From: Magnetovibrio sp.
Lineage (GTDB): Bacteria; Pseudomonadota; Alphaproteobacteria; Rhodospirillales; Magnetovibrionaceae
Assembly (NCBI GenBank): GCA_026196495.1
Contig: JAPHSY010000035.1
Span: 1 to 61,095, forward strand
Reading direction: 5' to 3'
Length of the DNA: 61,095 bases
Positions 1,425 through 30,019 of the stretch are shown here, piece after piece; position 1 is the stretch's first letter; each line of letters opens with the position of its first letter. The notes under the pieces are model-generated. The model was not told the origin of the DNA and did not search any database. It saw only the letters and a program-made list of their open reading frames with translations. The position numbers were made by a program, and so were the translations under genes.

Positions 1425-3251
1425 GTGAACACAGACCAAGGACAAGAAATGTCTAGCTTAATTGATCAAGTTTCCGCAGAAGGTGGAATTCAGTCTCTCA
1501 CCCGCGAACAGCTTCCCGCACTTGCAGATGAAATACGTGATTTCCTGATCCATTCAGTGTGTCGTACGGGTGGCCACTTGGGCGTGAACACAGGTATTGT
1601 CGAAGTCACAATTGCTATGCATTACGTATTTGATTCTCCCAAAGATAAGTTCGTCTGGGACGTTGGGCATCAGGTTTATGTACACAAGATTCTGACCGGC
1701 CGGGCACATACCTTAAAAACGATGCGCCAAGATGGTGGCAGCCCAGGTTTCCCTGCAAAGGATGAGAGTGAGCACGATTTGATGGATGTTAGCCACGGTG
1801 GCACATCCTTGTCTGTTGCTTCTGGGATTGCGCTTGCCAATAAGATCAAAGGTACGGATGGTTATCCCATTGCCATTATTGGTGATTCTGCCTTGGGAGA
1901 GGGCCTGGCGTTAGAAGCACTCAATCAAATCGGATATGACAAACCGAAAATGCTGATGATCGTCAATGACAACGGTTGGGGTATTACTGAAAACAAAACG
2001 GCGTTGAAAGCACACTTGGCCTCCAAAACTGAAATGATGAGCAATCAAGATGGATTGTTCGAAGCTATGGGCCTTAAGTATGTGGGGCCTGTAGATGGTC
2101 ACGACCTTGATGCACTGATCGATGTGTTGGAGGAGGTCAAAGATGAGCCCGGCCCTGTGGCGTTGCACGTCAAAACGGAAAAAGGTCGGGGTGTGCCATT
2201 TCCCACTGATGACATCACGAAATATCACTTCTGTTTCCCGCTGAACACGGAAACCGGTAAACCCATTACCGAAGATATCGGCACGGAAGAGGGGGTGTTT
2301 TATAAACCATTGTCAAGTTTTAACGCGGCTTTGGTTGGTGCCAAAATCAAGGAAATTGCTGAAAGTGATGACGATATTGCCTTGATTACGCCAGCCACAA
2401 TGGGGGCTTCTGAGACATTGGGGGCCTTTAATGCGGTGCCTGATCGAGCCTTTGATGTGGGTATGGCTGAACAGCATGCACTGACACTTGGCGTTGGTCT
2501 GTCTTTGCAGGGCATGAAGCCAATCATTTCCTATCAATCTACGTTCTTCCAACGTGCCTATGACCAATTGGTACATGATGCATGTGTGAACAATGTGCCG
2601 TTACTGATTATCTTAGCGCGCTCTGGTTTGGCCGGGTTGGACCATGCGACCCATCATGCGGTATTAGACCTGTCGTACCTGTCTTGTGTACCAAACTTGG
2701 AAATCTATTTTCCCCCCGATCACAAAAGCTTCAACGCTTTGTTGGAAGACAAAGCCCGCAATTGGGTCAGTGGACCGACCATTCTCATGAATCCTTATGG
2801 CACCTTGGAAATGATTGAACCTTCGGATGAAGAGCTCCAATCCATGGTGGATAATTTGTACAATGCAGATAATGTTGGCGTCATTCTAACCACGGCCGGG
2901 TTCTTGAAATCTGCACTAAAGGTTCAGGCCAAATTGCAAGAGGCTGGTGCCAAATGGGCTGTGTTGAACGTCACGAAGATTGCACCGTTGGACCAAGACT
3001 TATTTGCCAAGTTATTCGGACAGTATGACCGTTTTGTCACCATGGAAGAAAATGTCAGTCGTGGTGGTATGGGCAGTTCTGTATTAGAGATAGCCAACGA
3101 TATGGGCAAACCGATCGAAGCTTTACGTATCACTTTAGGTGACAAGTTTGTTGATCATGGCACGCGCCCGTATTTGCATGCCCAATGCGATATTGGCGCT
3201 GATAACGTGGTGGCCAAAGTTAAGGCCAAGTGGCCAGACCTGAAGTCTTGA
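1425..3251 (+). CDS. DXS-like transketolase-family enzyme (ThDP-dependent)
   Basis: 608 aa, full length for the 1-deoxy-xylulose-5-phosphate synthase (DXS) family, with both halves of a transketolase in one chain. It has an N-terminal ThDP/Mg region with GDS (about 153-155) and NDN (about 181-183), and a pyrimidine-binding domain with the catalytic Glu in AEQHA (about 348). Motifs diverge from housekeeping DXS: GDS replaces GDG, and GLDHATHHA replaces the usual GxDGxTHxG. The GTG start at 1425 has GAAGG about 8 nt upstream; ATG 1449 is an alternative. It sits 15 bp after the Fe-ADH gene and 22 bp before a Zn-ADH gene, so a paralogue working on sugars in this pathway is more likely than the isoprenoid enzyme. 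The acceptor and donor are not evident. Confidence 0.8.
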   Translation: MNTDQGQEMSSLIDQVSAEGGIQSLTREQLPALADEIRDFLIHSVCRTGGHLGVNTGIVEVTIAMHYVFDSPKDKFVWDVGHQVYVHKILTGRAHTLKTMRQDGGSPGFPAKDESEHDLMDVSHGGTSLSVASGIALANKIKGTDGYPIAIIGDSALGEGLALEALNQIGYDKPKMLMIVNDNGWGITENKTALKAHLASKTEMMSNQDGLFEAMGLKYVGPVDGHDLDALIDVLEEVKDEPGPVALHVKTEKGRGVPFPTDDITKYHFCFPLNTETGKPITEDIGTEEGVFYKPLSSFNAALVGAKIKEIAESDDDIALITPATMGASETLGAFNAVPDRAFDVGMAEQHALTLGVGLSLQGMKPIISYQSTFFQRAYDQLVHDACVNNVPLLIILARSGLAGLDHATHHAVLDLSYLSCVPNLEIYFPPDHKSFNALLEDKARNWVSGPTILMNPYGTLEMIEPSDEELQSMVDNLYNADNVGVILTTAGFLKSALKVQAKLQEAGAKWAVLNVTKIAPLDQDLFAKLFGQYDRFVTMEENVSRGGMGSSVLEIANDMGKPIEALRITLGDKFVDHGTRPYLHAQCDIGADNVVAKVKAKWPDLKS

Positions 3252-3273
3252 TTTAGGGAGCTATACGCACACG

Positions 3274-4332
3274 ATGAAAATCACTGAAGCCATACTTACT
3301 GGACCCAACACCATTGAGCTGCAGAATCATGATGTGCCGCTGCTTAATGATGATGAGTTGTTGGTGGAGGTGTCTGTCTGTGGTGTGTGCAGCAGTGAGT
3401 TCCCGGTTCTACGCGGTGAAGTTCAAGGCAAGTGCGGCGTGTCATTTCGCTATGCAGATTATCCCTGTTTTCTTGGCCATGAGGTTTCAGGGGTGGTTGT
3501 GGATAAAGGGACAGCTGTCTCTCAGTTCAACATTGGGGATCGTGTAACGGGTGTGGCGTATGAGGGCTCTGGCTTTGCAACGCACGTGGTTGCTCCGGCT
3601 TCGATGATGGTCAAGGTTGCTGACAACATTCCGTTGGATTATGCCTTGGGTGAGCCCGTGATGGCGGTGATGAATGCTGTACGCATGGCAGAGCCTGAGC
3701 TTGGTGATCAAGCTTTGTTGGTGGGTGACGGCTTCATGTCCTTAATGACGGTGGCAGCGCTGTCTCAATATGGACTGAAAAATATTATCGTTACCGGGCA
3801 TCATGCTGAACGTTTGTCTATCGCCAAAGCTTTAGGTGCTACCACAGTGGTCAATTCCAAAGATACGGATGCCTATTGGGCTGTTAGAGAATTGTTAGAT
3901 GGAGATGATTTTGATCGCAATGTCACATTGTGGAAAAACGGTGTTGATATTGCGTTCGAATATGCGGGGAAAATGGAAACCCTGCAACTGTGTGCAAGCC
4001 TATGTAAGCCCAAGCAACGTGCTAAGTTGATGATGACTTCGTTTTATCCAGAAGAACCCTTTACCCTAGGTCATTATTTGATCAACCGTGCCCCATCTTT
4101 GGTGCCGTCATTCCCAGCCCACTCTAAGGATGTGTTGGATGATTTGGATCGGGGTATGTGGGCACTGGAACAAGGGACGTTCCAAATGGATAAGCTGGTT
4201 ACTCACGCGTTTGAATTAAACAATATTGACGCTGCGATGGCTTATGCCAGTGGACGCACCGATGGTTATATAAAGGGCATTGTAACCCCCAGCTTTGACA
4301 AGCTTGAAACAAATGTAAGGCAAGTCTCATGA
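3274..4332 (+). CDS. Zinc-type (MDR) alcohol/polyol dehydrogenase
   Basis: 352 aa, medium-chain dehydrogenase/reductase. The catalytic-zinc Cys lies in the CGVC segment (residues 36-39) and GHE is at 68-70. The Rossmann domain follows around residue 145 onward (LVGDGFMSL). The four-cysteine structural-zinc lobe of classical ADHs is absent: the chain runs from VTGVAYEGSG straight to the FATHVVAP segment. It probably interconverts a sugar hydroxyl and ketone using NAD(P). Its 3' end overlaps the next gene in an ATGA arrangement (4329-4332), indicating translational coupling with the ATP-grasp protein. SD-like AGGGAG lies upstream of ATG 3274. Confidence 0.82.
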   Translation: MKITEAILTGPNTIELQNHDVPLLNDDELLVEVSVCGVCSSEFPVLRGEVQGKCGVSFRYADYPCFLGHEVSGVVVDKGTAVSQFNIGDRVTGVAYEGSGFATHVVAPASMMVKVADNIPLDYALGEPVMAVMNAVRMAEPELGDQALLVGDGFMSLMTVAALSQYGLKNIIVTGHHAERLSIAKALGATTVVNSKDTDAYWAVRELLDGDDFDRNVTLWKNGVDIAFEYAGKMETLQLCASLCKPKQRAKLMMTSFYPEEPFTLGHYLINRAPSLVPSFPAHSKDVLDDLDRGMWALEQGTFQMDKLVTHAFELNNIDAAMAYASGRTDGYIKGIVTPSFDKLETNVRQVS

Positions 4333-5552
4333 GTGATAAGAGATGTTTGCTGATTGTCGGTGCAGGGTTTGAGCAAATTTATGCTTACAATATGGCGCAT
4401 AAAATGGGGCTTGAAGTTGTAGCGTCTGATTATGACCCGCAAGCCCCAGCCTTTGAATATGCCGATTATAAATTAATAGCATCAACCCGTAATCCTGAAG
4501 AAACCATAACAGCAGCCAAGAAATTTCACCAAGAGCAACGGCCAATTGATGGTGTAATGACGGTTGCAAACGATGTTCCCTTAACCGTTGCCAGCGTTGC
4601 TGATGCGTTGGGGTTGCCGGGAATATCGATAGATGCGGCACGTATTGCGTCGGACAAGTTTTTGATGAAGCGCGAATTTGAAGCAGCTGGTGTCCCGGTG
4701 CCGAGGTATGAAGAAATTTTTTCAGCAGATGATATCAGGCGCCTTGCCAAAGACGGGGGCTTGCCCTTGGTTATTAAACCCAATGATGGGCGCGGTGCGC
4801 GGGGCGTTTTGCGTATTACCCAAGATATTGATTTTGACTGGGCCTTTGCTTACACCAAGAAGACCTCAGAAAGTGGACAAGTCCTAGCAGAGGCGTTTGT
4901 CAACGGTCCACAGCTGAGCTCGGAATCGATGATATACAATGGCAAGTGCTACACTGCTGCCGTCTCGCATCGCAACTATGAACTCTTGGACACGTATGCC
5001 CCTTATATTATCGAAAATGGCGGTGTGATCCCTGCAGATCTAAGTGAAATAGACTTAAAATCCATTGATAGAGTCATACACGATGCGGCCAAAGCCATGG
5101 GGGTGGAGCGGGGCACAGTCAAAGGTGATATCGTTCTGTCCGAGGACGGTCCCGTTGTAATTGAATTGGCGGCTCGTTTGAGTGGTGGCGGTTTGTGTAC
5201 CGACCAAATTCCATTGTCCCGTGGTGTTGACTTGGTCGAGCAGACCATTCGCTTGGCCTTAGGGGAAGAGTTGGACGTCAATGATTTGATCCCACAAGAC
5301 CTCTGCAAAATTGGCATTCGCTACATTTTTCCAAAACCAGGAGTCGTTCAGAGTGTTCAAGGTTTTGATGATTTGGATAAGCTGGAATGGATTTCAAAGA
5401 AAAAACTATTGGTTGAGGTGGGAGACATCATTGAAGATGTCGTGAGCCATCCGTCTCGTGTTGGCTTTGTCCACGCTGTTGGACAAAGCTATGATGAAGC
5501 GGAGCACCGAGCTATTTCTGCCGTAGAACAAGTTGTTATTAAAACGGCCTGA
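4329..5552 (+). CDS. ATP-grasp ligase
   Basis: 407 aa. The N-terminal pre-ATP-grasp Rossmann-like domain starts LLIVGAGFEQIYAYN. The ATP-grasp fold has the phosphate-binding Lys/glycine loop IKPNDGRGARGV (about 150-161) and the Mg-binding strand VIELAARLSGGG (about 275-286), close to the E-x-N-x-R-x-GG pattern of active enzymes. Such enzymes join a carboxylate to an amine, thiol or imine through an acylphosphate. In a carbohydrate island a likely job is amide formation between an amino or hydroxy acid and an amino sugar, but that is inference. It overlaps the Zn-ADH gene by 4 bp. Two further ATP-grasp genes lie at 11092-13391. Confidence 0.85.
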   Translation: MSDKRCLLIVGAGFEQIYAYNMAHKMGLEVVASDYDPQAPAFEYADYKLIASTRNPEETITAAKKFHQEQRPIDGVMTVANDVPLTVASVADALGLPGISIDAARIASDKFLMKREFEAAGVPVPRYEEIFSADDIRRLAKDGGLPLVIKPNDGRGARGVLRITQDIDFDWAFAYTKKTSESGQVLAEAFVNGPQLSSESMIYNGKCYTAAVSHRNYELLDTYAPYIIENGGVIPADLSEIDLKSIDRVIHDAAKAMGVERGTVKGDIVLSEDGPVVIELAARLSGGGLCTDQIPLSRGVDLVEQTIRLALGEELDVNDLIPQDLCKIGIRYIFPKPGVVQSVQGFDDLDKLEWISKKKLLVEVGDIIEDVVSHPSRVGFVHAVGQSYDEAEHRAISAVEQVVIKTA

Positions 5553-5570
5553 AGCCGAAGGAGAACACCT

Positions 5571-6407
5571 GTGAGTTCCGATACAGATATTGATCTGAAA
5601 GCCTTGGCACTGGAAATGCGCGGCAACATCATAAAGATGAATTGCCATGCTGGTTCCGGGCATCCGGGGGGCGCGCTTTCTTCGGTGGAGATGCTGACCT
5701 ACTTATTCTTTAAAGAAATGAATTTTGGTCCGAACAATGCCTTGGACAATGACCGGGATCGTTTCATTCTGTCCAAAGGTCACGGCTGTATGTCGCTTTA
5801 CGCGGCATTGGCAAAAAAAGGATTTTTTGATGAGGAAGAATTTAAGCATCTGCGTCATATCGATAGTATGCTTCAAGGCCATCCTGATCGGGTGAAAACC
5901 CCTGGAGTTGAATTTAACTCTGGTTCTTTGGGCCAAGGTTTTTCGTTTTCCCTGGGCTGTGCGCTGGCAGGCAAACGCCGCGGCAGTGACGGGCGGATCT
6001 ATGCGTTGTTGGGCGATGGTGAACTAAATGAAGGCCAAGTGTGGGAAGGCTTGATGTTTGGAGCGCACTATAAATTGGATAACATTGTTGCTTTGGTTGA
6101 TTACAACAAACTGCAAAGCGACGATTTAAATTCCAACATCACAGCGTTGGAACCTTTAATGGATAAGTTCAGCGCATTTGGTTGGCACGCCATTGAAATT
6201 GATGGGCACAATTTTGATGAGATAGCGGCCGCACTGGCCGAGGCCCGCACCGTTCAAGGCAAACCCACCATCATCTTAGCTCATACGGTGAAGGGCAAAG
6301 GCATTTCATATATGGAAGGTGTGCCCAAGTGGCATGGCTCGCTGGCACCCCAAGGGGAAGAACGCAGTCAAGCCCTGCGTGAATGTGGGTTGGAGGGATT
6401 GGACTGA
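5571..6407 (+). CDS. Transketolase, N-terminal (ThDP-binding) subunit
   Basis: 278 aa, corresponding to only the first domain of transketolase. It shows the transketolase markers GHPGGALSS near the N-terminus, SKGHGCMSLYAAL, and the ThDP/Mg motif GDGELNEG (about 149) followed by VDYNKLQSDD. The GTG start at 5571 is chosen because AAGGAGA lies 7-8 nt upstream. The stop overlaps the start of the C-terminal subunit gene by one base (TGATG at 6405-6409), so the two halves should be made together as a heteromeric two-carbon transferase. A second split pair is encoded on the minus strand at 28243-30019. Confidence 0.9.
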   Translation: MSSDTDIDLKALALEMRGNIIKMNCHAGSGHPGGALSSVEMLTYLFFKEMNFGPNNALDNDRDRFILSKGHGCMSLYAALAKKGFFDEEEFKHLRHIDSMLQGHPDRVKTPGVEFNSGSLGQGFSFSLGCALAGKRRGSDGRIYALLGDGELNEGQVWEGLMFGAHYKLDNIVALVDYNKLQSDDLNSNITALEPLMDKFSAFGWHAIEIDGHNFDEIAAALAEARTVQGKPTIILAHTVKGKGISYMEGVPKWHGSLAPQGEERSQALRECGLEGLD

Positions 6408-7351
6408 TGATCAGCTTACGTGAAGCCTTTGGTAATTCCCTTGTTGAGTTGGCCAAAACTCGTGATGATTTTGTCGTGTTGGATGCTGATGTTGCAGGTG
6501 GGACCGGAGTAAATATTTTTCGGGATGCCTATCCAGACCGCTTTATTCAGTGCGCCATTGCGGAACAAAATATGGTGAGTATGGCTGCTGGCTTGGCCAG
6601 TACAGGTGTTATCCCCATTGTCACGTGCTATGCCGTGTTTGCATCTATGCGCGCCATTGAACAGGCACGAAACGGTGTGGGCTATCCCAACTTCAATGTC
6701 AAGATTGCAGCCAGCCACATTGGCATGGATGTTGGGCCAGATGGTGCCAGTCATCAATGTGTTGAAGATGTCGCAATCTATCGAGCAATTCCAAATTATT
6801 CCGTGGTCTCACCGGCGGACCCAACGGAATTGAAACGTTCTTTATCGGCAATATTGGATCATCAAGGCCCGGTGTACTTCCGCACAGGGCGCAGTCCCGT
6901 TCCAGAAATTGAAGGTAACAATCCCTCAGCACCGTTTCTACTGGGTAAAGGCCAATTGGTTCGTGAGGGTACGGACCTCACCATCATTGCTGTTGGTATT
7001 ATGGTTCACCGCGCCGTGTTGGCGGCTGAACTGCTTGCAACCCAGGGGGTGTCGTGTCGCGTGGTGAACATGGCTTCCTTAAAGCCTATTGACCGAGATT
7101 TGGTGATTAAGTGTGCTGCGGAAACAGGTGCCATTGTCACCGCCGAAGATCACAATGTGATGGGTGGCCTAGGCAGTGCCGTGGCCGAAGTGGTGGTCAG
7201 TGCTTCACCATGCCCGATGGATTTTGTTGGGATACAGGATACCTTTGGCGAGTCTGGTGAGCCGGATGATCTGGCCGCTAAGTATGGCCTGACTGAAAAA
7301 GATATGGTTGAGGCAGCAGAGCGTGTTTTGGCACGCAAAGTGGGGCAATGA
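6407..7351 (+). CDS. Transketolase, C-terminal subunit
   Basis: 314 aa. This is the pyrimidine-binding plus C-terminal domain of a split transketolase. The catalytic glutamate is in AEQNMVSMAAGLA (Glu at about 52), and the C-terminal domain has MASLKPID and TAEDHNVMGGLGSAV, typical of these subunits. ATG 6407 is preferred over the in-frame upstream ATG at 6383 because it has TGGAGGG upstream and overlaps the previous stop. Together with the preceding subunit it should transfer a ketol (C2) unit between sugars. Its 3' end overlaps the following SDR gene in an ATGATG arrangement, which ties the reductase to the transketolase product. Confidence 0.9.
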   Translation: MISLREAFGNSLVELAKTRDDFVVLDADVAGGTGVNIFRDAYPDRFIQCAIAEQNMVSMAAGLASTGVIPIVTCYAVFASMRAIEQARNGVGYPNFNVKIAASHIGMDVGPDGASHQCVEDVAIYRAIPNYSVVSPADPTELKRSLSAILDHQGPVYFRTGRSPVPEIEGNNPSAPFLLGKGQLVREGTDLTIIAVGIMVHRAVLAAELLATQGVSCRVVNMASLKPIDRDLVIKCAAETGAIVTAEDHNVMGGLGSAVAEVVVSASPCPMDFVGIQDTFGESGEPDDLAAKYGLTEKDMVEAAERVLARKVGQ

Positions 7352-8103
7352 TGAACTCCTTAAACAACAAGGTTGTTGTCGTCACAGGCGGTAGTCGTGG
7401 AATTGGTCGTGGCATCGCCTTGCGCTGTGCTGAAGCCGGGGCACGGGTTGCGTTGAGCTATAGCTCCCAAAAACAAGCTTCTGATGATGTGGTTTCAGAA
7501 ATTGAAGCAGCGGGTGGTCAGGCATTATCCATGGAATTGCATGTCGAAGACCGGGGCTCCATTCAATCTGCGCTGGATACGGTTAATGATACATTTGGTG
7601 GTGTGGACGTGTTGATCAACAATGCGGCGATTTCACAGGAAAAACCATTTTTAGAAATTACCGATGATGACTGGGACGTCATGTTGGCAATCAATTTACG
7701 TGGTGCATTTTCGTTTTCTCAAATGGTTCTTCCGCACATGATTGAAAAGGGTTGGGGGCGAATTATCAATATTTCTTCTATTGGTGGACAATGGGGTGGC
7801 TTTAACCAAGTTCATTATGCAGCTTCAAAGGCGGCACTGATAAGCCTGACGCAGTCACTGGCAAAAATTTATAGTGGTGAAGGGGTGACTGCCAATGCTA
7901 TTGCGCCAGGGTTGGTGGCAACGGATATGGCTGCGGCTGAACTTGATAGTGATGAAGGCCAAAAGAAAGTCGCAGGTATTCCCGCAGGGCGCATTGGCAC
8001 AACGACGGAAATTGCCGATGCCGTGGTGTTCCTCGCAAGTGAGGAATCCGGGTACATTACCGGTCAAACCTTAAACTTGAATGGTGGAATGTATTTTTCA
8101 TAA
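7348..8103 (+). CDS. SDR family oxidoreductase (FabG-like)
   Basis: 251 aa classical short-chain dehydrogenase. It has the NAD(P)-binding TGGSRGIGRG (about 14-23), NNAA, an active-site Ser in NISSIGG, and the catalytic Tyr/Lys of YAASK (about 157/161). The C-terminus GYITGQTLNLNGG is typical of FabG-type enzymes. The start codon overlaps the transketolase C-subunit stop by 4 bp. A reasonable inference is that it reduces or oxidises the keto product of the split transketolase. A fatty-acid role is unlikely because no acyl-carrier genes are nearby. Confidence 0.87.
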   Translation: MMNSLNNKVVVVTGGSRGIGRGIALRCAEAGARVALSYSSQKQASDDVVSEIEAAGGQALSMELHVEDRGSIQSALDTVNDTFGGVDVLINNAAISQEKPFLEITDDDWDVMLAINLRGAFSFSQMVLPHMIEKGWGRIINISSIGGQWGGFNQVHYAASKAALISLTQSLAKIYSGEGVTANAIAPGLVATDMAAAELDSDEGQKKVAGIPAGRIGTTTEIADAVVFLASEESGYITGQTLNLNGGMYFS

Positions 8104-8148
8104 ACATTTTTTGATGTGGTTATCGAAGTGATTAGGAAAGGTGTTTCG

Positions 8149-9309
8149 ATGCATAAAAGGCTCTGTGCCATTCAGATGCACTACACAGACATATTTCCAG
8201 GTTTAAAAGAAAACAACTGCGTATCGACAATGATACAAAGCGGATTGTTCGATGATGTCGTGATCGTTGCGGCGGATGTTGAGCAGAATAAAGTTTTGCA
8301 AAACTACGCTTCGGATTGGGGGGTCGAGCTTCATTTGGGTGCAGTTGAAAACGTCACACAGCGTCTCTTCGAAATTTCCCAGAAATATGGTGCAAACAGT
8401 ATTCTTAGGGTTTTACCACAATGGTATTTCATCGATGTCGCGTTTGTGGAAAGCATGCTTGAGACATTGGAAAGCCAAGATGCGGATTATTTAATTGTCC
8501 CCACTGATTTTGATTTTCGCTTTGGTGGGGATGTTTTCTCTGGACGGTTCTTAGAGACCCTTCTCCATGACTTTGAAAATATGACGGATTGTCCACGCCA
8601 ATACCTGTTTAACCCCTGGGGATACGTTAATGCTTTTGGTCATCCTTCCCTGAAATTGATTGAACATAAAGATGTCCCGCAATGTTCAAATGATGATTTT
8701 GTAGAGTTTCGTGCCCGTTATAATGATGTTTGGCCGGAACAATGGGACAAAGCGGATACTCCTCAGGCGCCATACAAAATGTGTCATGAGTATATTTCAA
8801 ATGACATGGCGGCATTGGATATAGCCTGTGGTCACGGTTCAGGTTCAAAGTTTCTCATTGATCAAGGTTGTCAATCTGTTGTGGGTGTCGATGTGTCTCA
8901 GGCGGCAATCGACCATTGCCAGAACAAATTTCTGGATGACAAACGGCTCTCATTTCATTGTGGCGATGCATTGGGTATTGATTTTGTATCGGAACAGTTC
9001 GACCTGATCGTGACCATTCACACCATGGAACACGTAAGTGACGATATGGCATTTTTGGATAAACTGAAGTCATGGTTGAAGCCAGGGGGAACAATAGTTC
9101 TTGAGGTGCCATTATTGATGCGTCTTCCCTTTAAGGATTCAGATCAACCTTTCAGCGATGGTCATATTCGTGAGTATTATCCCAGACCATTGGTCGATTT
9201 GTTTCAAAATTTTTTTATGATAACAAAACAATTTGGCGTGAGCCGTGGATTTTATGTTGAGCCGAATAAGGCACGCAACGCAATGATGATAATTGGGCAA
9301 AGAACCTAG
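8149..9309 (+). CDS. Cytidylyltransferase-like domain fused to SAM methyltransferase
   Basis: 386 aa. Residues 1 to about 150 resemble the SpsF/NeuA-like nucleotidyltransferase fold (VVIVAADVEQN, a WGVELHLGAVENVTQRLF stretch, then SILRVLPQWYFID). The usual N-terminal nucleotide-binding loop (A-R-x-x-S-x-R-L-P-G-K) is absent; the protein starts KRLCAIQMHYTDIFPG. Residues from about 220 form a class I methyltransferase with motif I DIACGHGSGSKF, an acidic VVGVD and a late VTIHTMEHV. ATG 8149 is preferred to an upstream GTG at 8116 because AGGAAAGG lies 8 nt before it. It ends 4 bp before the next gene, which carries an intact cytidylyltransferase domain. Catalysis by the first domain is doubtful; methylation of a nucleotide sugar or glycan is the likely role. 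Confidence 0.7.
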   Translation: MHKRLCAIQMHYTDIFPGLKENNCVSTMIQSGLFDDVVIVAADVEQNKVLQNYASDWGVELHLGAVENVTQRLFEISQKYGANSILRVLPQWYFIDVAFVESMLETLESQDADYLIVPTDFDFRFGGDVFSGRFLETLLHDFENMTDCPRQYLFNPWGYVNAFGHPSLKLIEHKDVPQCSNDDFVEFRARYNDVWPEQWDKADTPQAPYKMCHEYISNDMAALDIACGHGSGSKFLIDQGCQSVVGVDVSQAAIDHCQNKFLDDKRLSFHCGDALGIDFVSEQFDLIVTIHTMEHVSDDMAFLDKLKSWLKPGGTIVLEVPLLMRLPFKDSDQPFSDGHIREYYPRPLVDLFQNFFMITKQFGVSRGFYVEPNKARNAMMIIGQRT

Positions 9310-9313
9310 TGCC

Positions 9314-11086: not shown

Positions 11087-11091
11087 ATGAT

Positions 11092-18684: not shown

Positions 18685-19220
18685 CATTTCTCGATACTCA
18701 TCCAGATTTTGAGCGGGTCGACAGTGGTAAATCGCCAGCATACTTTGCACGCTTTCCCAATGTCAGTGTTGGGGAAGCTGAAATAGCAGCATTGTTTTCT
18801 GAGGCTGAAGCGTTGGGGCAAGTGAACATGCGCATTTGTTTGCATGGGGCGTCTGATGACCCGTTTCACAACATGATTATCTTGGAATACCCTGGTAGCC
18901 GATATTTTCGTCCTCACCGTCATCGTGAAAAGGGTGAGACCTGCCATATGATTGACGGTAGTTTGCAGTTGTTTGTTTTTGATGATGACGGACGTATCCT
19001 CAAATCTGAAAATATGAGTGCAGACGACAATCCGATCTTTCGAGTTGGAGCAAAGCAATGGCATACCTTGATCCCCGTTTCATCCCCGGTGATTTATCAC
19101 GAAAGTAAACCAGGACCGTTTTTCGGTGATGAGGATAGCCTTTACCCAACTTGGGCACCCGATGGTGTGGATGAAAATGAAGCTCAGCGTTACGTACAAA
19201 ACCTGATGGGTGAGGGCTGA
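18672..19220 (+). CDS. WbuC-like cupin-fold metalloprotein
   Basis: About 182 aa. The C-terminal two thirds form a single cupin with FRPHRHREKGETCHMIDG (His and Glu in the order of cupin motif 1) and a late AKQWHTLIP (His of motif 2). This arrangement matches the WbuC family seen in O-antigen clusters, whose function is not established. The start is uncertain: GTG 18672 lies inside the end of the radical SAM gene with a purine-rich GGGGGCAGG upstream; TTG 18657 is also open. It is probably an isomerase or sugar-binding protein acting beside the radical SAM enzyme. Confidence 0.78.
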   Translation: MQGVTFLDTHPDFERVDSGKSPAYFARFPNVSVGEAEIAALFSEAEALGQVNMRICLHGASDDPFHNMIILEYPGSRYFRPHRHREKGETCHMIDGSLQLFVFDDDGRILKSENMSADDNPIFRVGAKQWHTLIPVSSPVIYHESKPGPFFGDEDSLYPTWAPDGVDENEAQRYVQNLMGEG

Positions 19221-19223
19221 AAT

Positions 19224-21220: not shown

Positions 21221-21240
21221 TCTGAAACGGGACTGATGAA

Positions 21241-22383: not shown

Positions 22384-23536
22384 TTGCTGCCTGTGTGGGG
22401 CACTTGTCGAAGATTTTGAAAGCAAGCCTTGGAAAATTCCAAACCTTGGCGTGCAGACGATCTCTTATGGTTTGTGCCCGTCGTGTGGCATGGTGTTGGA
22501 AACAGACACACTGAGTGTTGAAGACATGAACACTTATTATCGGTTTAATGCCACCTATATCAATCCTGGACGTGGTGGCAAACCATCTGCGGCAAAGGTG
22601 CGGGTTCTGACACGATTGGGAAATCTCGTCCAAGATGTTTTTGGGCAGATGCCAAAGTCTGTGTTTCAAGTGGGTTGCTCTGACGGGTACACCCTGTCGC
22701 GATTTAAAGAGTTTGGGGCAGAGATTGTCTCTGGTATGGACCTAAGCGAAGCCAGTTGTGAACTTGCACAGCGTCAATATGGTGTTGATGTATCAGTGGG
22801 GGACTTTGAAAGCTTCGATCCGGATGGTCAGAGATATGATTTGTTTGTCCTAACCCACATATTGGAACATCTTTATGATCCGGCCGCTGTGCTTCAGAAG
22901 TGTTCTGAGATGCAAGATGATGAAGGCCGATTGCTGGTTGAAGTTCCGCTGTTGGAAAATGTAGATTGTTTTTCCCCCGGCAGTCTAACCTTGGAGCACC
23001 TCAATTATTTTACGGAGCGAACGATGCGCCAACTTTTGGCACGCTCCGGGTATGATGTGAAAGGTGTATTTAAGGACTTTACACTTTCTGTCTATCCCGT
23101 CATCACTTTGTTCTGTCAAAAGGGTGATGTGCGCTACGATACGGAATTTTCCCCAAGCGTTGAAGTTCAGAAGTTTGTCTCTGATTATATGGAACGTGAA
23201 AAGATAGTCTGGGGACGTTCGAACCAAAAGATTAAAGCGGCAGTGCCGAAGGGGGCGCGGGCATATATTTATGGTGCGGGCGTACATACAACGCAGCTTC
23301 TGGCCAATACTGAAATTGAGAAATATCTGGATATTGTCAACATTTTGGATTCCAGCCCAACGAAGTGGGGGTGCCATCTTGGGGAACATGAGTGCAAAGG
23401 CCCTGATGATGTGGATCATGATAATGTTGATGTGGTGGTGATATCTTCGTTCAACTCTGAGAACGAAATTGCGAAGGCAATTACAGGTCAATACGGTAAC
23501 GCGAAAATATTGAAACTATATGATGAGCCCATGTGA
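22370..23536 (+). CDS. Sugar C-methyltransferase (zinc-binding, TylCIII/NovU type)
   Basis: 388 aa when started at ATG 22370 (MMRRDCCLCG). An in-frame upstream opening to 22178 is the overlap with the radical SAM gene. The order of domains is that of deoxysugar C-methyltransferases: an N-terminal zinc site (CCLCG and CPSCG), a SAM domain with VFQVGCSDGYTL (about 101), and a C-terminal domain with AYIYGAGVHTTQLL (about 300) and a DVVVISSFN strand. These enzymes methylate C3 or C5 of nucleotide-4-keto-sugars. The overlap with the upstream radical SAM gene suggests sequential action on one sugar. Confidence 0.85.
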   Translation: MMRRDCCLCGALVEDFESKPWKIPNLGVQTISYGLCPSCGMVLETDTLSVEDMNTYYRFNATYINPGRGGKPSAAKVRVLTRLGNLVQDVFGQMPKSVFQVGCSDGYTLSRFKEFGAEIVSGMDLSEASCELAQRQYGVDVSVGDFESFDPDGQRYDLFVLTHILEHLYDPAAVLQKCSEMQDDEGRLLVEVPLLENVDCFSPGSLTLEHLNYFTERTMRQLLARSGYDVKGVFKDFTLSVYPVITLFCQKGDVRYDTEFSPSVEVQKFVSDYMEREKIVWGRSNQKIKAAVPKGARAYIYGAGVHTTQLLANTEIEKYLDIVNILDSSPTKWGCHLGEHECKGPDDVDHDNVDVVVISSFNSENEIAKAITGQYGNAKILKLYDEPM

Positions 23537-23581
23537 ACAAAATGATGGTTTTTTGGTTCCTGATTTTGGACAATGTAAAAT

Positions 23582-24238: not shown

Positions 24239-24367
24239 TTGATGATGGAGTTCAAATCCTGCGATTGCTAATTGCTATGTCTTTCGACAATATTTCATGA
24301 AGGCTTTTGTCTTCTAAAGATTTAGCATTATTAGGTTCAGTATTTTTCAAGTGATAGGTTCGTTTTA

Positions 24368-26359
24368 TTGGCACGCTTAAACCTGTATACATGTTTTCAC
24401 CTAAACCTTGCGTTTTCCTCAATAGAAGGGCAGGACCGTGAGCTTGTGTTGAAACAATGCTATTGGCCATTGCTGAAAATTACGCGGGAATTGGGCATGG
24501 CAATTGGTTTGGAAGCCAATGCTTCATCACTGGAGATGATCCGTGATATGGATCCAAGTTTCATTGAATATCTCAAAGAATCGATTGAACTTGGCCAAAT
24601 TGAATTTATTGGCAGTGGCTATGTGCAAATTATAGGCCCACTTATTCCTGCGGATGTAAATCGCGCGAACCTTCATATTGGTAATAAAGTTTATGCAGAT
24701 CTGTTGGGAACACGTCCACGGATTGCTTTGGTCAATGAGCAAGCATATTCACCAGGCCTAGTCCCGCTGTATTTAGAAGCAGGTTATGATTGCATCATTA
24801 TGGATTGGGCGGGACCATTTTCGCATAACAACACCTGGTCATCGGATTGGCAGTATCAACCGCAAAAAGTGTTGGGCACAGATGGTTCTTCTATCGATAT
24901 GCTCTGGAACCATTCAATTTCATTTCAGCGGTTTCAAAAGTACGTTTATGGTGAAATGTCTTTGGATGAACACCTTGAATATCTGTCAGGCCATCTGTCG
25001 ACGGATGCCCGGGCATTTAATTTGTATGGTAGTGATGTTGAAGTCTTTGATTATCGCCCCAAACGCTATGCACATGAACAGCCGCAAGATAGGCATGAAT
25101 GGGAGCGAATTAAGAAGCTTTTTGTAATATTGCAAAATGACCCTCGCTATGAGTTTGTAACTCCATCTGATGTATTTGCAACTATTCCCCACGGTGAACA
25201 GTTGTTGTCATTGGAAAGTCCGGATGATCCGATCCCCGTCAAAAAGCAAACAAAGTATAATATTACCCGATGGGCCGTATCTGGCAGAGATGATATTTGG
25301 AGCAATACGGTCTGTTGGCGCGCTTATGAGCAGTTGGATAAAAATCTAGAAATTACCGATGATCAGTGGCGCAATGTTTGTTTGAAATGGCGTAGTGATT
25401 ATCGCACCCACATTACACAATCGCGTTGGAATGTTTTTTGTCGTGATATGTCACGGCAGTTTGGTGAGGAAACTGAACCCAAGAAAATAGAGACCAAAGG
25501 AAAACGACCATTTTCAATGGTTGATGGCGTTGCGGAAACTTCAGGCGTGTTCACCCTTGTGCGCAATGGTCACATATTGTCGATCTCTGCAGGGCAAAGT
25601 GAAGTTGAGCTCAACTTGCGCCGTGGGCTTACCATCCGTTCTTACAAAGTACCGCAATTCAGTGATGAGATGATCTACGGTACTTATCCATTGGGCTACT
25701 ACACCGACATCAACTGGGTGGCGGATTACTACAGTGGTCACTTGGTTGCTGAGGTCGCGGGCCGCCACAAGGTATCTGACTTAGACATTATGGATAGCCT
25801 CTACGATGTAGAGCACACAGAGACGACATTGACATTGCGTGCACGGATTGAAACAAATTTTGGTGACATTGATAAAGTCCTGACCATACATGCAGATAAG
25901 CCCAAACTGGATTTGTCATATCATGTGGGTTGGTCGGATATTCCGACTTCGAACCTTCGTATGGGTCACGTGACATTAAATCCAGAGTTGTTTGAACGTG
26001 GTTCTCTTTATTATGAAACCCACAACGGCGGTAAATCCTCGGAGGTTCATGGTCTGTCGGACGCGGATGTGAACTTTGGTCGGGCCGTGTCGTTCTTAAC
26101 TTCAGCACACAGTTGTCTGGGCATGACCGAAGGCACCTTAGAAATCGGTGATGACAATTTGGCTGTGGTGTTGTCCACCGACAAAACCGTGGCGGCTTTG
26201 GTGGGGATGGTTCAATGTATGAGCGTGGAAGATAGCTATTTTTGCCGTGCGAGCTTAAGTGCGCGGGAATTTGATGATACGTCACGTGATGATGGACCGT
26301 TTTTGGACATTGCAGGCCGCAATCAATTTACCTGTTCCATTGAAGTGAAGCAGAAATAA
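24368..26359 (+). CDS. Glycoside hydrolase family 57/38-like protein
   Basis: 663 aa. The N-terminal 300 residues resemble the seven-stranded barrel of GH57/GH38-type enzymes: LYTCFHLNLAFSSI at the start, GLEANASSLEMI, a LGQIEFIGSGYVQIIGP strand, and ALVNEQAYSPGLVPL followed by GYDCIIMDW. The C-terminal half looks like the beta-rich domain that follows. GH57 enzymes are retaining amylases, branching enzymes or galactosidases, and some relatives are deacetylases. The start must be TTG 24368, since no ATG or GTG fits before the conserved N-terminus. It ends one base before a convergent gene. Its presence among synthetic genes suggests glycan remodelling or turnover. Confidence 0.7.
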   Translation: MARLNLYTCFHLNLAFSSIEGQDRELVLKQCYWPLLKITRELGMAIGLEANASSLEMIRDMDPSFIEYLKESIELGQIEFIGSGYVQIIGPLIPADVNRANLHIGNKVYADLLGTRPRIALVNEQAYSPGLVPLYLEAGYDCIIMDWAGPFSHNNTWSSDWQYQPQKVLGTDGSSIDMLWNHSISFQRFQKYVYGEMSLDEHLEYLSGHLSTDARAFNLYGSDVEVFDYRPKRYAHEQPQDRHEWERIKKLFVILQNDPRYEFVTPSDVFATIPHGEQLLSLESPDDPIPVKKQTKYNITRWAVSGRDDIWSNTVCWRAYEQLDKNLEITDDQWRNVCLKWRSDYRTHITQSRWNVFCRDMSRQFGEETEPKKIETKGKRPFSMVDGVAETSGVFTLVRNGHILSISAGQSEVELNLRRGLTIRSYKVPQFSDEMIYGTYPLGYYTDINWVADYYSGHLVAEVAGRHKVSDLDIMDSLYDVEHTETTLTLRARIETNFGDIDKVLTIHADKPKLDLSYHVGWSDIPTSNLRMGHVTLNPELFERGSLYYETHNGGKSSEVHGLSDADVNFGRAVSFLTSAHSCLGMTEGTLEIGDDNLAVVLSTDKTVAALVGMVQCMSVEDSYFCRASLSAREFDDTSRDDGPFLDIAGRNQFTCSIEVKQK

Positions 26360-27022
26360 TTATTCAAAATATATAAAATCGAAATCGCCTTCATACCCTG
26401 TTTTTTTGGCAAACCAATCCCATTCTTCTGGTGTGTAGAACGTTTCACAGGTCAGTTGCCAGTACAGTAAGTTGGCTTTTTCCGAATGATTACGGTAGCT
26501 CTCAACACAGACAAATCGATCTTTATGTCCAACGCGTTGGATTTCTTGAAATGCGTTCCAGAGCTCAAAATTTTTGAGATTGTGAAAAGTGTTGATAGAA
26601 TAAACGAGATCAAAGCTGTTGTCTTCATAGGGTAGCTTGTCGGCACTTGCCACTTGTAAGAACGGTTTGATTTCTTCTTTGGCATTTTCAATGCCGTACT
26701 CAGATATATCCATACCTGCGACGATTAAACCCGGCACGGCCTGGGTCAATTCATAGAGCAAATAGGCCTTTCCGCATCCTACGTCTAAAACCTTGTTACC
26801 GGCTTTGAGGTTATAGTGTTTGGCGATGGCTTCTGCGATAGGATACCAACGTCCGTCATAAGAATAACCGCCATAACCATATTGACGTTCACCGTCCCAA
26901 TAATCTTGTCCCCACTGGCATGCAACTTCGGCACACTTGCCTTTATCATGCTCGACCACACGTTGGACATAATCGCGTTTGGTGCTGGTGTGAAGCGGAG
27001 TGAGAAAATCGAGTGTCTTCAT
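26360..27022 (-). CDS. Class I SAM-dependent methyltransferase
   Basis: 220 aa. Motif I VLDVGCGKAYLLYEL (about 78-92), acidic VAGMDISEYG, and FDLVYSINTFHNL (motif II) identify a small-molecule methyltransferase. It is the last gene of a minus-strand operon running 33123 to 26360 and overlaps the LIC12192-family gene by 4 bp (ATGA). Its stop codon directly abuts the stop of the convergent GH57-like gene. It probably methylates the sugar made by the split transketolase and 2OG oxygenase of the same operon. Confidence 0.85.
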   Translation of the reverse strand: MKTLDFLTPLHTSTKRDYVQRVVEHDKGKCAEVACQWGQDYWDGERQYGYGGYSYDGRWYPIAEAIAKHYNLKAGNKVLDVGCGKAYLLYELTQAVPGLIVAGMDISEYGIENAKEEIKPFLQVASADKLPYEDNSFDLVYSINTFHNLKNFELWNAFQEIQRVGHKDRFVCVESYRNHSEKANLLYWQLTCETFYTPEEWDWFAKKTGYEGDFDFIYFE

Positions 27023-27435
27023 AGGAAAGCTCCCAAATCGATTTGGCGGTTTTGGGTGATGTGATGGATACCAAGCAACTCTTCAAGATGCTCAAGGTCT
27101 TCAAGATTTGAGATGGAGATGTTCTCCACCGCACCATGGAGGGTGCAACCTGCCTTAAAGATGCTCTGAATACAGGCAAGGCGCCGTTTTTGATTTTGTG
27201 GCAACATGAAGATTGAGTACATCACAATACCTTGAACGGAAGACAGTTCTCGAAGAACTTCTTCCAACATGATGTAACAACCGTCCATATGGTATTCGGT
27301 TGCGGACAGAAGGTATGGGTACTCATGACGCTGGCAGAAATCACGTATGACCAAGTTTTGCACATGTTGAGGTGTATTTTGACCCCGGTATGGTCGTGAT
27401 CCGATATATCCGCGATATCCCAATTGCTTATTCAT
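27019..27435 (-). CDS. LIC12192-family sporadic carbohydrate cluster protein
   Basis: 138 aa. The sequence GYRGYIGSRPYRGQNTPQHV, followed by NLVIRDFC, matches from memory the small LIC12192 family found sporadically in carbohydrate clusters (named after a Leptospira protein). Its biochemical function is unknown. No membrane segment or signal peptide is visible. It overlaps the 2OG oxygenase gene by 8 bp upstream and the methyltransferase by 4 bp downstream, with AGGG about 8 nt before ATG. The tight coupling suggests it is a partner or enzyme of the same modification step. Confidence 0.75.
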   Translation of the reverse strand: MNKQLGYRGYIGSRPYRGQNTPQHVQNLVIRDFCQRHEYPYLLSATEYHMDGCYIMLEEVLRELSSVQGIVMYSIFMLPQNQKRRLACIQSIFKAGCTLHGAVENISISNLEDLEHLEELLGIHHITQNRQIDLGAFL

Positions 27436-28243
27436 CTTTGAAGCCCTGGTGATATTGATACTTCATACCGAGTTTTGTAATGGGCCGCACAGAGATAGGT
27501 TCAAAGTATTCGCCCAATTTTTTATCATCGTATGGTGTAAGGGCACCTTTAAAGCGAACGTTCATAGACCACCGTGTGGTATCTTCCAAATTGACACGAT
27601 TGCCATGCATAAGGCTCAAGCTGAAGATCATTACTTGCCCCTTATTCACTTTCATGAATTGAGCACGACCTTTGACAGCTTGGTATAAGTCTTCAGCATT
27701 TTTGTTGGTGAAGTTGTGAAACTGATTGTGCATAGCATAGTCATCAGTCGGCGATAACAAGTACATGGTTTTCGTGCCATAACAGTCCACCAGTGGAAGC
27801 CATACCACCACTTCAAACGGCGAATTTCCGTCCCACACATCGGCATGAATAGGCAGGAGGGAACTATCATCATCGGGGAGTTGAATGCTCAGATTCACAT
27901 TACGTTGCATCACCAGTTCATTGCCAACCAATGCTTCTATATGTTTGCGAGCCAGTTCAAAGTATGCCTGCCGAAACCATGTTTCTTGTTTTAGCCCATT
28001 GATCACATGTAGACGCAGATCATTTAACGATTGTGACGATATATGATCATGTATCTGGTCAAGATACGTTGTGGCATCGGCCGGTTTCTCATGACCTAAG
28101 TGTCTAGCGGCTATTTCTGCCACACAGCTTTGAATGCGGTCCAGAGCATCAGTATCCTCAACATCAAAAATTGCGAAGCCATTGGTGAGGAAGTCCTCCC
28201 CCAATTTTTGATCATCAATGCTCAGGAATGATTGTTTGCTCAT
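27428..28243 (-). CDS. 2OG-Fe(II) oxygenase of carbohydrate cluster (PhyH-like)
   Basis: 271 aa. A 2-oxoglutarate/Fe(II) dioxygenase with the facial triad visible as HAD (His 133, Asp 135) and a distal His 213 in LMHGNRV, with Arg 224 in TTRWSMNVRF as the likely 2OG-binding residue. It fits the carbohydrate-cluster 2OG oxygenase family that co-occurs with LIC12192-type proteins. It probably hydroxylates or oxidises a sugar. ATG 28243 overlaps the transketolase C-subunit stop by one base; the upstream in-frame opening to 28264 lies inside that gene. Confidence 0.83.
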   Translation of the reverse strand: MSKQSFLSIDDQKLGEDFLTNGFAIFDVEDTDALDRIQSCVAEIAARHLGHEKPADATTYLDQIHDHISSQSLNDLRLHVINGLKQETWFRQAYFELARKHIEALVGNELVMQRNVNLSIQLPDDDSSLLPIHADVWDGNSPFEVVVWLPLVDCYGTKTMYLLSPTDDYAMHNQFHNFTNKNAEDLYQAVKGRAQFMKVNKGQVMIFSLSLMHGNRVNLEDTTRWSMNVRFKGALTPYDDKKLGEYFEPISVRPITKLGMKYQYHQGFKDE

Positions 28244-29178
28244 CAGGCTTTCGTCTCCGCCCATGCATCACTTACGGCTTTGTGGATGTGTTCGGGGCCT
28301 AAGCCCATAGCATCCAGGAGGTTCTCTTGTCGGCCATAGTCATGTGCAAAGGCATCGTCAAAGCCCAGGCGCAGAACACGGGGCATAGGATTGACATTAT
28401 GATCCAACACCACATCGCCAACAGCACTTCCTAAACCGCCAATGCGGGTATGTTCTTCCAGGGTTACGATCAATTGCGATGTCTTGGCTGCTTTCAATAC
28501 AATGTCGGTATCCAAGGGTTTGACAGTGTGCATGTGTACCACACCACAATTTATCCCTTCGGCGGCGAGTTGATCAGCCAAGTTGAGTGCACGATTGGTC
28601 ATGATGCCAGTGGAAATCACGGTGATATCCGCCAAGTCGCGCATGATGATGGCCTTGCCGTGGGTAAAGCCAGATTCGTTTGTTGAAACGATTGGGTCGC
28701 CGCCGCGTCCCAATCGAATGTAAACTGGGCCTGGTGTGTCTAAGGTGGTTGGCATGAAGCGTTTCATTTCATCTGCATCAACAGGGGCAACAACACTCAT
28801 GTTGGGCAGGGCGCGGAAAATAGCAATGTCTTCTACAGCCAAATGGGTTGGCCCCAATGGCGCATATACAACACCACCTCCATTCCCGATCAAACGAACG
28901 GGAAGATTGTGAAGGCATAAATCCAGTGCCACTTGTTCATAACAACGGCGGGTCAAAAATGTAGCAATGGTGTTGACGTAGGGAATGAACCCTTCCATAG
29001 CAAGTCCTGCGGCTACACCAATGACGTTGGCTTCCGATACACCTTCCATATAAAAACGTTCGGGCATTTCGGCTTGCATTTCAGCCAATACACCCGGGCC
29101 TAGGTCAGAGCCAACAAACACAACGCGGGAATCTTGTTTGGCAAGCTCATAAATGCTGTTGAGACAAGTTTTACGCAT
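28243..29178 (-). CDS. Transketolase, C-terminal subunit (second pair)
   Basis: 311 aa from ATG 29178 (MRKTCLNSIYELA), chosen because GGAGG lies 6 nt upstream; the open frame to 29298 overlaps the N-subunit gene. It has the catalytic Glu in GVSEANVIGVAAGLA (the usual AEQN reads SEAN) and the C-terminal domain VHMHTVKPLDTD and EHTRIGGLGSAV. It pairs with the N-terminal subunit encoded just upstream (8-bp overlap). Compared with the plus-strand pair at 5571-7351 it is clearly related but diverged, which suggests a different acceptor. Confidence 0.9.
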   Translation of the reverse strand: MRKTCLNSIYELAKQDSRVVFVGSDLGPGVLAEMQAEMPERFYMEGVSEANVIGVAAGLAMEGFIPYVNTIATFLTRRCYEQVALDLCLHNLPVRLIGNGGGVVYAPLGPTHLAVEDIAIFRALPNMSVVAPVDADEMKRFMPTTLDTPGPVYIRLGRGGDPIVSTNESGFTHGKAIIMRDLADITVISTGIMTNRALNLADQLAAEGINCGVVHMHTVKPLDTDIVLKAAKTSQLIVTLEEHTRIGGLGSAVGDVVLDHNVNPMPRVLRLGFDDAFAHDYGRQENLLDAMGLGPEHIHKAVSDAWAETKA

Positions 29179-30019
29179 CGTAAGCCTCCAGGGCTGCATA
29201 CATCTTTTTGATATCTTCGGGTGGTAAATTCGATTTGTGGTGCCATGTTGCTTGGCCCTCGGCAAAGGGTATGCCTTTGCCTTTGACTGTATTGGCAATC
29301 ACCGCCGTGGGCTTATTGCTGCTCAGTGGTGCTTTTAGGGCATCTAACAATGCGTTGGTGTCGTGCCCATCAATAGAAACGGTTTCAAACCCAAAGCTTT
29401 GCCATTTGTCCACCAAAGGCTCCATTGGTTGAACTACATGTGTAGGGCCGTAAGATTGGATTTTATTGTAGTCTACAATAGCCGTGAGATTGGTAAGGCT
29501 GTGTTTTGAGGCACACATAGCGGCTTCCCATACGGAACCTTCGTTGATTTCGCCATCCCCCATAATGACGAATACGCGGCTGTCACGTTTGTGAATGCGT
29601 TGTGCCAAGGCCATACCAACACCAATGGACAAACCATGACCCAATGCCCCAGTAGAAGCTTCAACACCCGGTATTTTGCCCCGTTCGGGGTGGCCGCCTA
29701 AATACGATCCAGGGCGGCAAAATGTTCGCAGATCTTGGGCGGGGAAAAAACCTTTGTCAGCCAAGAGGGCATAAAGGGTTAGACAGCCATGCCCCTTGGA
29801 TAAAATACAGCGATCACGCCCATCCCACATGGGTTCATCAGCTTTAAAGCGCAAAACATCATCGTAGAGCACACGCAGGATTTCGATTAAAGACATAGAC
29901 GAGCCGATGTGACCGCGGCCACCACCGTCTAGGGCGTCTAAGACCATACGCCGCAAGTCCTTGGATCGTTGATCCATAGGCGGTGATGCGGGGTGGAGAT
30001 GAGCGACTTCAGATGTCAT
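29171..30019 (-). CDS. Transketolase, N-terminal subunit (second pair)
   Basis: 282 aa from ATG 30019 (MTSEVAHLHP); GGAG lies about 9 nt upstream, and further in-frame ATGs reach 30070 inside the preceding gene. ThDP-binding features: GGRGHIGSSMSL, SKGHGCLTLYALL, and the GDGEINEGSVWEAAMC motif followed by VDYNKIQSYG. It forms, with the next gene, a complete split transketolase expected to move a C2 ketol unit. It overlaps the end of the HAD-kinase gene by 11 bp and the C subunit by 8 bp, so the block is tightly co-translated. Confidence 0.9.
   Translation of the reverse strand: MTSEVAHLHPASPPMDQRSKDLRRMVLDALDGGGRGHIGSSMSLIEILRVLYDDVLRFKADEPMWDGRDRCILSKGHGCLTLYALLADKGFFPAQDLRTFCRPGSYLGGHPERGKIPGVEASTGALGHGLSIGVGMALAQRIHKRDSRVFVIMGDGEINEGSVWEAAMCASKHSLTNLTAIVDYNKIQSYGPTHVVQPMEPLVDKWQSFGFETVSIDGHDTNALLDALKAPLSSNKPTAVIANTVKGKGIPFAEGQATWHHKSNLPPEDIKKMYAALEAYDA

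Follow-up and report, generated by a model that had tools for sequence, protein, structure and literature searches.

Three ThDP enzymes in a glycan island

We analysed a 61,095-nucleotide stretch of DNA from Magnetovibrio sp. (contig JAPHSY010000035.1 of assembly GCA_026196495.1, positions 1 to 61,095), called the window below, which is one contig (C23) of a 3.1-Mb genome in 86 contigs. The left half of the window is a glycan island with NeuB and PseB genes at its end, and the right half contains genes of the FlbT, FlaF, FlgK, FlgI, FlgH, FlgA and FlgG types. Three thiamine diphosphate (ThDP) systems are encoded in the island: a protein resembling DXS, the 1-deoxy-D-xylulose 5-phosphate (DXP) synthase, and two transketolases split into N and C chains, TK1 and TK2 (Table 1). 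They are divided between two opposed operons, and relatives of each are also found apart in other genomes. A preliminary description of this DNA had regarded the three as tools for repeated two-carbon or acyl transfer onto sugar intermediates, leading to branched or elongated sugars outside central metabolism. All three are indeed open and full-length. TK1 and TK2 are diverged from one another (37.7% identical with the chains joined for alignment), and each is coupled to a redox gene, as had been noticed: the TK1 C chain and a short-chain dehydrogenase/reductase (SDR) gene overlap by 4 bp (ATGA), and the TK2 C chain and a 2-oxoglutarate (2OG) oxygenase gene share TGATG.

These enzymes are not the housekeeping copies. 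A canonical DXS is encoded on another contig (C17, 638 bits to E. coli DXS) and a canonical transketolase on a further one (C15, 709 bits to E. coli TktA). Therefore, the window enzymes are extra copies and are probably specialised, and a housekeeping role was rejected. Together with the replaced acceptor-site residues in the DXS-like enzyme and TK2, this agrees with the suggested role outside central metabolism. Matches on contigs C35 and C59 were considered as further split transketolases and rejected; they did not exceed 75 bits with the window enzymes or 42.5 with E. coli DXS, and are probably E1-type enzymes.

Substrate-site residues

We aligned 85 DXS-family sequences (the best 80 of 216 relatives plus six others, less L031, whose frame is split in two and which was lost). 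His49, His299, Glu370, Arg398, Arg420 and His431 are kept in all 85. The window enzyme keeps His49, His299, Glu370, Asp427 and His431, whose ThDP-related and catalytic roles we in part presume. Thus it resembles DXP synthase in family score, in these residues and in Arg398 and Arg420. It differs in Gln392, in Tyr478, in a gap across E. coli positions 228-229, and in having glycan instead of isoprenoid neighbours. Gln392 and Tyr478 occur together in exactly five of the 85 sequences, all five in the gene context described below, and these five form one clade (SH-aLRT 100; the tree was a quick one, and long branches in it were flagged). Position 392 is Tyr in every one of the other 80, and position 478 is Arg in 71, Lys in six, Ala in two and Ser in one. 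The window enzyme therefore lacks both Tyr392, which we take to be a residue of the glyceraldehyde 3-phosphate (GAP) site, and Arg478. According to the accessible part of one report, R478 and R420 of E. coli DXS are important for GAP binding (PMC11908136).

TK1 of the window keeps the ThDP-motif residues Asp155 and Asn185, Glu411, and His26, His66, His100 and His261 (E. coli numbering). Of the substrate residues, His461, Asp469, His473 and Arg520 are kept, and Ser385 is aligned to Gly in a gapped region. The TK1-type C chains retain His461, Asp469 and Arg520 in 11/11; nine of the 11 have Ala473, and the window and the desulfovibrio plasmid pDCAR1 retain His. Window TK2 lacks His461 and Asp469. 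Gly461 and Leu469 replace them in all 17 readable TK2-type C chains (of 18), with His473 in 16 of the 17 (Tyr in L148) and Lys520 in 16 (Arg in the window).

Engineered transketolases offer a comparison, as far as the available text of one paper goes (PMC7696235): TKgst variants with H474 changed to S or N and H102 to G, L or T accept aliphatic ketoacids, although activity with pyruvate is low, and the list of variants pairs L191I/D470L with propanal and EcTK H461S with glycolaldehyde. From the numbering, we infer that H102, H474 and D470 of TKgst are E. coli positions 100, 473 and 469. The natural Ala473 of TK1 relatives and Gly461/Leu469 of TK2 would then lie at positions that engineers altered for donor or acceptor range in the work described there. 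Gly461/Leu469 probably predict that TK2 uses a non-phosphorylated acceptor without an alpha-hydroxyl. The best Protein Data Bank sequence match of both window C chains is the split-chain transketolase of Carboxydothermus hydrogenoformans (6yaj), from which TK2 differs in lacking His and Asp at 461 and 469, and most TK1 relatives differ in Ala473.

TK1 and TK2 sequences fell into separate groups in a tree of 33 rows (L133, a truncated sequence, was left out), each group needing a single change in all (100%) of the 200 bootstrap trees. E. coli TktA and its counterpart from this genome are placed on the side of TK1, and the DXS sequences on that of TK2. The two groups also belong to different gene sets, called modules A and B below, which are mostly found apart; a TK2-type pair is present in only two of 24 module A stretches, namely the window and a plasmid (L203). 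A single pathway of repeated transfers through all three enzymes was therefore rejected. What stands of the earlier proposal is that specialised two-carbon transfer coupled to a reductase is probable.

Module A recurs with an exchangeable carboligase

Module A consists of the DXS-like enzyme, TK1, the SDR, an ATP-grasp ligase, a GH57-like protein, NeuB and a cytidylyltransferase/PseG-like fusion, and this set recurs in other genomes. The GH57-like protein is rare, found in 10/385 genomes of the class and 4/398 of a phylum sample (its own genome is in both). In another class of the phylum, an ATP-grasp query matched 11/321 genomes (the query's own, seven fetched and three weak ones left out). 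Neighbourhoods of the GH57-like gene frequently show the order ThDP enzyme, SDR, ATP-grasp, GH57, together with PseB/PseC, NeuB and the cytidylyltransferase/PseG-like gene.

We compared 24 loci, counting matches at 60 bits: the window, three found with the DXS-like query (L009, L010, L024), 13 with GH57 (L164-L172, L176-L178, L203) and seven with ATP-grasp (L204-L210). The ATP-grasp gene is present in 22 and the GH57-like gene in 21, counts inflated in part by construction; 11 of the 13 GH57-found loci have the ATP-grasp gene and four of the seven ATP-grasp-found loci have GH57. The SDR is present in 18, and NeuB and the cytidylyltransferase/PseG in 17 each. A ThDP carboligase occurs in 20 loci, as a transketolase only (nine), DXS-like only (three), IlvB-like (six) or transketolase plus DXS-like (two, the window and L009). 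Without the window, L009, L010 and L024, the count is 16/20 (transketolase nine, DXS-like one, IlvB-like six). Sixteen of 22 ThDP genes lie within 11 bp of the SDR gene on the same strand (stop-to-stop frames), and the ATP-grasp ligase accompanies 19 of the 20 carboligase-bearing loci. Three of the six IlvB-like proteins were examined, and all three have the TPP_enzyme N/M/C three-domain architecture (Pfam). No IlvB-like match was found in the window.

The zinc-type alcohol dehydrogenase and two extra ATP-grasp genes are restricted to the two loci with both transketolase and DXS-like enzymes, so the chain may be extended there, or a second substituent added. L009 is a contig with transposases, filed under a Candidatus Aenigmatarchaeota metagenome-assembled genome (MAG), and is possibly mis-binned. 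The loci without a visible ThDP gene are L169 (a short contig), L176, L205 and L210. At L176 (12253-15451) the carboligase slot is filled by a second NeuB-family gene and an iron-containing alcohol dehydrogenase, which suggests that a different acyl chain is made there in a phosphoenolpyruvate-dependent way.

All 21 GH57-like proteins retain the putative catalytic motifs with Glu and Asp. The AlphaFold model of this protein has a mean pLDDT of 60.4, the first ~285 residues being better than the remainder. In this partly poor model, the best fold matches are GH57 4-alpha-glucanotransferase and GH38 mannosidases, with 1k1x apparently nearest.

Pseudaminic acid genes and related systems

The same genome encodes PseB in the window and PseC (478.3 bits) on contig C40. 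That contig also carries two further NeuB-family genes, so at least two nonulosonic acids may be produced. NeuB and a cytidylyltransferase are present in the window at family level. The best PseH match in the genome reached 27.9 bits, under the cut-off of 93.1. PseC was above its cut-off in 16 of 19 module genomes searched (this genome and 15 of 18 others), the searches covering loci other than L009, L010, L024, L203 and L210. The remaining three scored 419.2 (G140, cut-off 423.5), 387.9 (G116, at a contig end with one in-frame stop) and 221 bits (G004). PseH was above its cut-off in none of the 19 (this genome, nine of the class and nine others). This pattern is only suggestive of PseH replacement.

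The closest characterised operon is sfmABCDE of Shewanella oneidensis, encoding NeuB, a ThDP enzyme annotated ilvB, an SDR, a methyltransferase and an ATP-grasp protein. In the parts of that study accessible to us (PMC3765264), each deletion shifts the flagellin mass, with mass lost. The flagellin glycan was assigned as mono-N-acetyl pseudaminic acid plus C9H16O7, C10H18O7 or C11H20O7 with O-methyl groups, the outer moiety being 236, 250 or 264 Da. The authors reported PseB and PseC homologues and no clear PseH, PseG, PseI or PseF; no oxonium ion of the outer moiety was seen, and a charged amino group was left on the inner sugar. Both observations would fit an amide-linked acid that leaves as a lactone. 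By gene content only, the window is alike in holding NeuB, ThDP enzyme, SDR, methyltransferase and ATP-grasp genes in one island. It differs in having a DXS-like enzyme and split transketolase instead of the IlvB type, and adds the GH57-like gene, the iron- and zinc-type alcohol dehydrogenases and two more ATP-grasp genes.

Plasmid pDCAR1 of Solidesulfovibrio carbinolicus (NZ_CP026539.1) carries a comparable glycan locus. There a split-transketolase module A adjoins pseB, pseC, pseF and NeuB, and a second, TK2-type pair lies with kin of HldE, APH and MT3; a DXS-like gene was not seen in its 29.9-kb stretch, and the record gives no function. The type B flagellin modification genes of Clostridium difficile likewise include a candidate ATP-grasp carboxylate-amine ligase, but the sections consulted describe no ThDP enzyme and a peptidylamido-glycan product (PMC5207246). 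No description of a transketolase or DXS version of module A was met in the open-access literature searched.

Proposed role of the island

Gene content, recurrence, clade-specific residues, the presence of PseC where PseH was not found, and genetic tests of an operon with the same kinds of genes lead us to propose, at about even confidence, that the island makes a decorated pseudaminic-acid-type sugar in which a hydroxy-acyl cap built by a carboligase replaces the acetylation by PseH. The decorated sugar would most likely be destined for flagellin. Substrates, products, the amide bond and the order of steps are read from protein family, context and residues, and the scheme would run as follows. 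In module A, the ThDP carboligase would move a two-carbon unit onto an aldehyde: the DXS-like enzyme would take an acetyl unit from pyruvate, and TK1 would transfer a ketol unit or perhaps, in the Ala473 relatives, an acetyl unit. The SDR, and in the window also both alcohol dehydrogenases, would reduce the new ketone to give a hydroxy-acid, which would often be O-methylated. The ATP-grasp ligase would couple this acid to the free amino group made by PseC, in place of acetylation by PseH. NeuB and the cytidylyltransferase/PseG-like fusion would complete and activate the sugar. TK2 would belong to the separate module B, where its acceptor is probably an aldehyde with neither a phosphate nor an alpha-hydroxyl group. 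An acyl group of Treponema denticola flagellin is reportedly 2-methoxy-4,5,6-trihydroxyhexanoyl, which we did not use as evidence.

A broader proposal, held at somewhat below even confidence, is that module A is interchangeable: transketolase, DXS and acetolactate-synthase types would fill one slot, and the ATP-grasp ligase would install the hydroxy-acyl cap in place of the PseH acetyl group. The proposed role of module A would supply testable biochemistry for a kind of flagellin-modification operon that was reported in 2013 without assigned reactions, and would make the ATP-grasp route a specific candidate replacement for PseH. It would also offer natural DXS and transketolase variants, the latter with changes at positions targeted in engineered carboligases.

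Several observations weigh against the proposed hydroxy-acyl cap. Four of the 24 loci have no ThDP gene and six no SDR at 60 bits, and no gene supplying the aldehyde-acid acceptor was recognised. His473 is retained in window TK1, and all N chains that cover position 100 have His there. PseI, PseG and PseF were under their cut-offs (173, 50.5 and 19.3 bits) in the window, where alone they were searched. PseH is rare in the class anyway (6/385 genomes above cut-off), so its absence from module genomes is weak evidence, and we gave up building a strong statistical case on it. A SAR11 contig and two MAGs filed under archaea carry the DXS-like module as well, so it need not serve flagellin. In the Shewanella data available (PMC3765264), the sfmE (ATP-grasp) mutant swims with reduced soft-agar spread and keeps its filament, and its flagellin shift is slightly smaller than in sfmA-D mutants; if SfmE only attached the product of SfmB-D, it should match those mutants, so the fit is imperfect. 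The increment C9H16O7 given there fits an acyl group or a sugar residue alike.

In the chief alternative, the ThDP enzymes act on the sugar itself, which is lengthened or branched when two carbons are added to a nucleoside-diphosphate keto-sugar or a free sugar aldehyde and is then reduced. His461, Asp469 and Arg520 of TK1 C chains would suit sugar-like acceptors, and the window has several epimerases and dehydratases. However, this route needs no ATP-grasp ligase, which accompanies nearly every carboligase locus; the nine-carbon backbone is already explained by PseB/PseC/NeuB chemistry; and the inner sugar in Shewanella was assigned as mono-acetyl pseudaminic acid in the portion of the study at hand (PMC3765264). 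We consider it unlikely. The branched or elongated sugar expected earlier is thus not favoured for the DXS-like enzyme and TK1, whose frequent partners (SDR, ATP-grasp, NeuB and PseB/PseC) indicate instead a hydroxy-acyl substituent in amide linkage; TK2 may extend a sugar or an aldehyde.

It is improbable that nearby glycan genes draw on these enzymes for additional central metabolites (DXP, sedoheptulose or heptose precursors). Module B does have an HldE-like kinase/nucleotidyltransferase and a pDCAR1 relative lies near a SIS-domain gene, but Tyr392/Arg478 of DXS and His461/Asp469 of TK2 are replaced and housekeeping copies are present. We regard as quite improbable that they are E1-like acyl donors to a carrier protein that feeds the ATP-grasp enzyme, as proposed for QncN/QncL and SclQ2-Q4. 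The scleric acid cluster, as described in the part of its report available, combines a split transketolase-type pair with an ATP-grasp ligase (PMC6335953), but a Pfam scan of 50 window proteins, which did not extend to carrier-sized small open reading frames (ORFs) or to the other loci, found no lipoyl, E2 or acyl-carrier family. The least probable reading, that unrelated ThDP paralogues have become neighbours by chance in a mosaic glycan locus, draws on the shuffling of genes in glycan islands and on TK2 being a separate module, and for module A is already largely refuted by like gene sets in two classes of the phylum, on a desulfovibrio plasmid and on MAG contigs.

Module B and other features

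Module B, with TK2, holds both sporadic carbohydrate cluster families above cut-off. TIGR04324 is above cut-off in 29/385 class genomes, this one included. In 27 TIGR04324 stretches from 26 of the 29 (this genome, G225 and G370 left out; neighbours at 60 bits), TK2 C-chain kin occur in only 16, Spo1 in 24, MT3 in 20, and HldE-like and Epi2-like genes in 14 each. Module B is a cluster of its own, perhaps heptose-like, with an altered transketolase.

Table 1. Genes of the glycan island with supporting matches
Feature	Position	Strand	Evidence
Iron-containing alcohol dehydrogenase	219..1409	+	PF00465 2.4e-48; module A extended set; directly precedes DXS-like gene in L009 too
DXS-like ThDP enzyme (DXSL), Gln392/Tyr478 clade	1425..3251	+	608 aa; TIGR00204 (dxs) 508.8 bits, cut-off 465.95; residues; clade
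Zinc-type alcohol dehydrogenase	3274..4332	+	PF08240/PF00107; module A extended set; at 60 bits only window and L009 of 24 loci
ATP-grasp ligase ATPg1	4329..5552	+	PF18603/PF02655; module A core; 22/24 loci, partly by construction
TK1 N (ThDP) chain	5571..6407	+	PF00456 (Transketolase_N) 2.6e-51
TK1 C chain	6407..7351	+	PF02779 (Transket_pyr) 4.4e-41; ORF opens at 6383, ATG at 6407 likelier start; TGATG overlap with N chain
SDR reductase	7348..8103	+	PF13561 1.4e-64; 4-bp overlap with TK1 C chain; 18/24 loci
C-terminal methyltransferase-domain protein	8116..9309	+	PF13649/PF08241, residues ~228-331; N-terminal region without assignment
Cytidylyltransferase + PseG-like fusion	9293..11086	+	PF02348 7.6e-19; TIGR03590 50.5 bits, under cut-off 153.55
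Second ATP-grasp protein (ATPg2)	11092..12264	-	PF13535 3.3e-10; only window and L009 of 24 loci
Third ATP-grasp protein (ATPg3)	12261..13391	-	PF01071/PF02655; only window and L009 of 24 loci
Methyltransferase MT14	22373..23536	+	PF13489 1.3e-14; at 60 bits 4/24 loci including window
GH57-like protein, module A partner	24368..26359	+	PF03065 1.5e-16; putative catalytic Glu and Asp motifs kept
Methyltransferase MT3, module B	26360..27022	-	PF08241 2.4e-17; 20/27 TIGR04324 stretches
Sporadic carbohydrate cluster protein 1	27019..27435	-	TIGR04323 139 bits, cut-off 55
Sporadic carbohydrate cluster 2OG-Fe(II) oxygenase	27428..28264	-	TIGR04324 319 bits, cut-off 150; likely start 28243
TK2 C chain, Gly461/Leu469	28243..29178	-	PF02779 4.8e-31; likely start
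TK2 N chain	29171..30019	-	PF00456 3e-48; likely start
HAD+APH fusion (label by eye)	30009..31568	-	No Pfam/NCBIfam match; similar neighbour genes in 11/27 TIGR04324 stretches
HldE-like nucleotidyltransferase + PfkB kinase	31591..33156	-	PF01467, PF00294; 14/27 TIGR04324 stretches
Sugar epimerase/dehydratase Epi2	34681..35700	+	PF01370 1.4e-33; module B partner elsewhere, 14/27 TIGR04324 stretches
NeuB-family synthase	38871..39764	-	PF03102 1.2e-59
PseB	39757..40761	-	TIGR03589 527.4 bits, cut-off 407.75

The HAD+APH protein resembles a pDCAR1 gene annotated as aminoglycoside phosphotransferase family. A WbuC-family cupin (18657-19220; TIGR04366, 96.8 bits, cut-off 42) has kin adjoining several module B loci. 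For a B12-binding radical SAM protein (16816-18684), the closest models are those of P-methyltransferase, with scores far under their cut-offs. Beside the DXS-like gene of the SAR11 contig (L024, 1266-9391), overlapping opposite-strand ORFs of 2706 aa (minus) and 2686 aa (plus) were observed, which may represent one giant gene of repeats. The window yielded neither a tRNA nor an Rfam match reaching the gathering score. An ABC transporter (solute-binding protein, permease and ATPase; 51022-54960) lies within the flagellar gene block.

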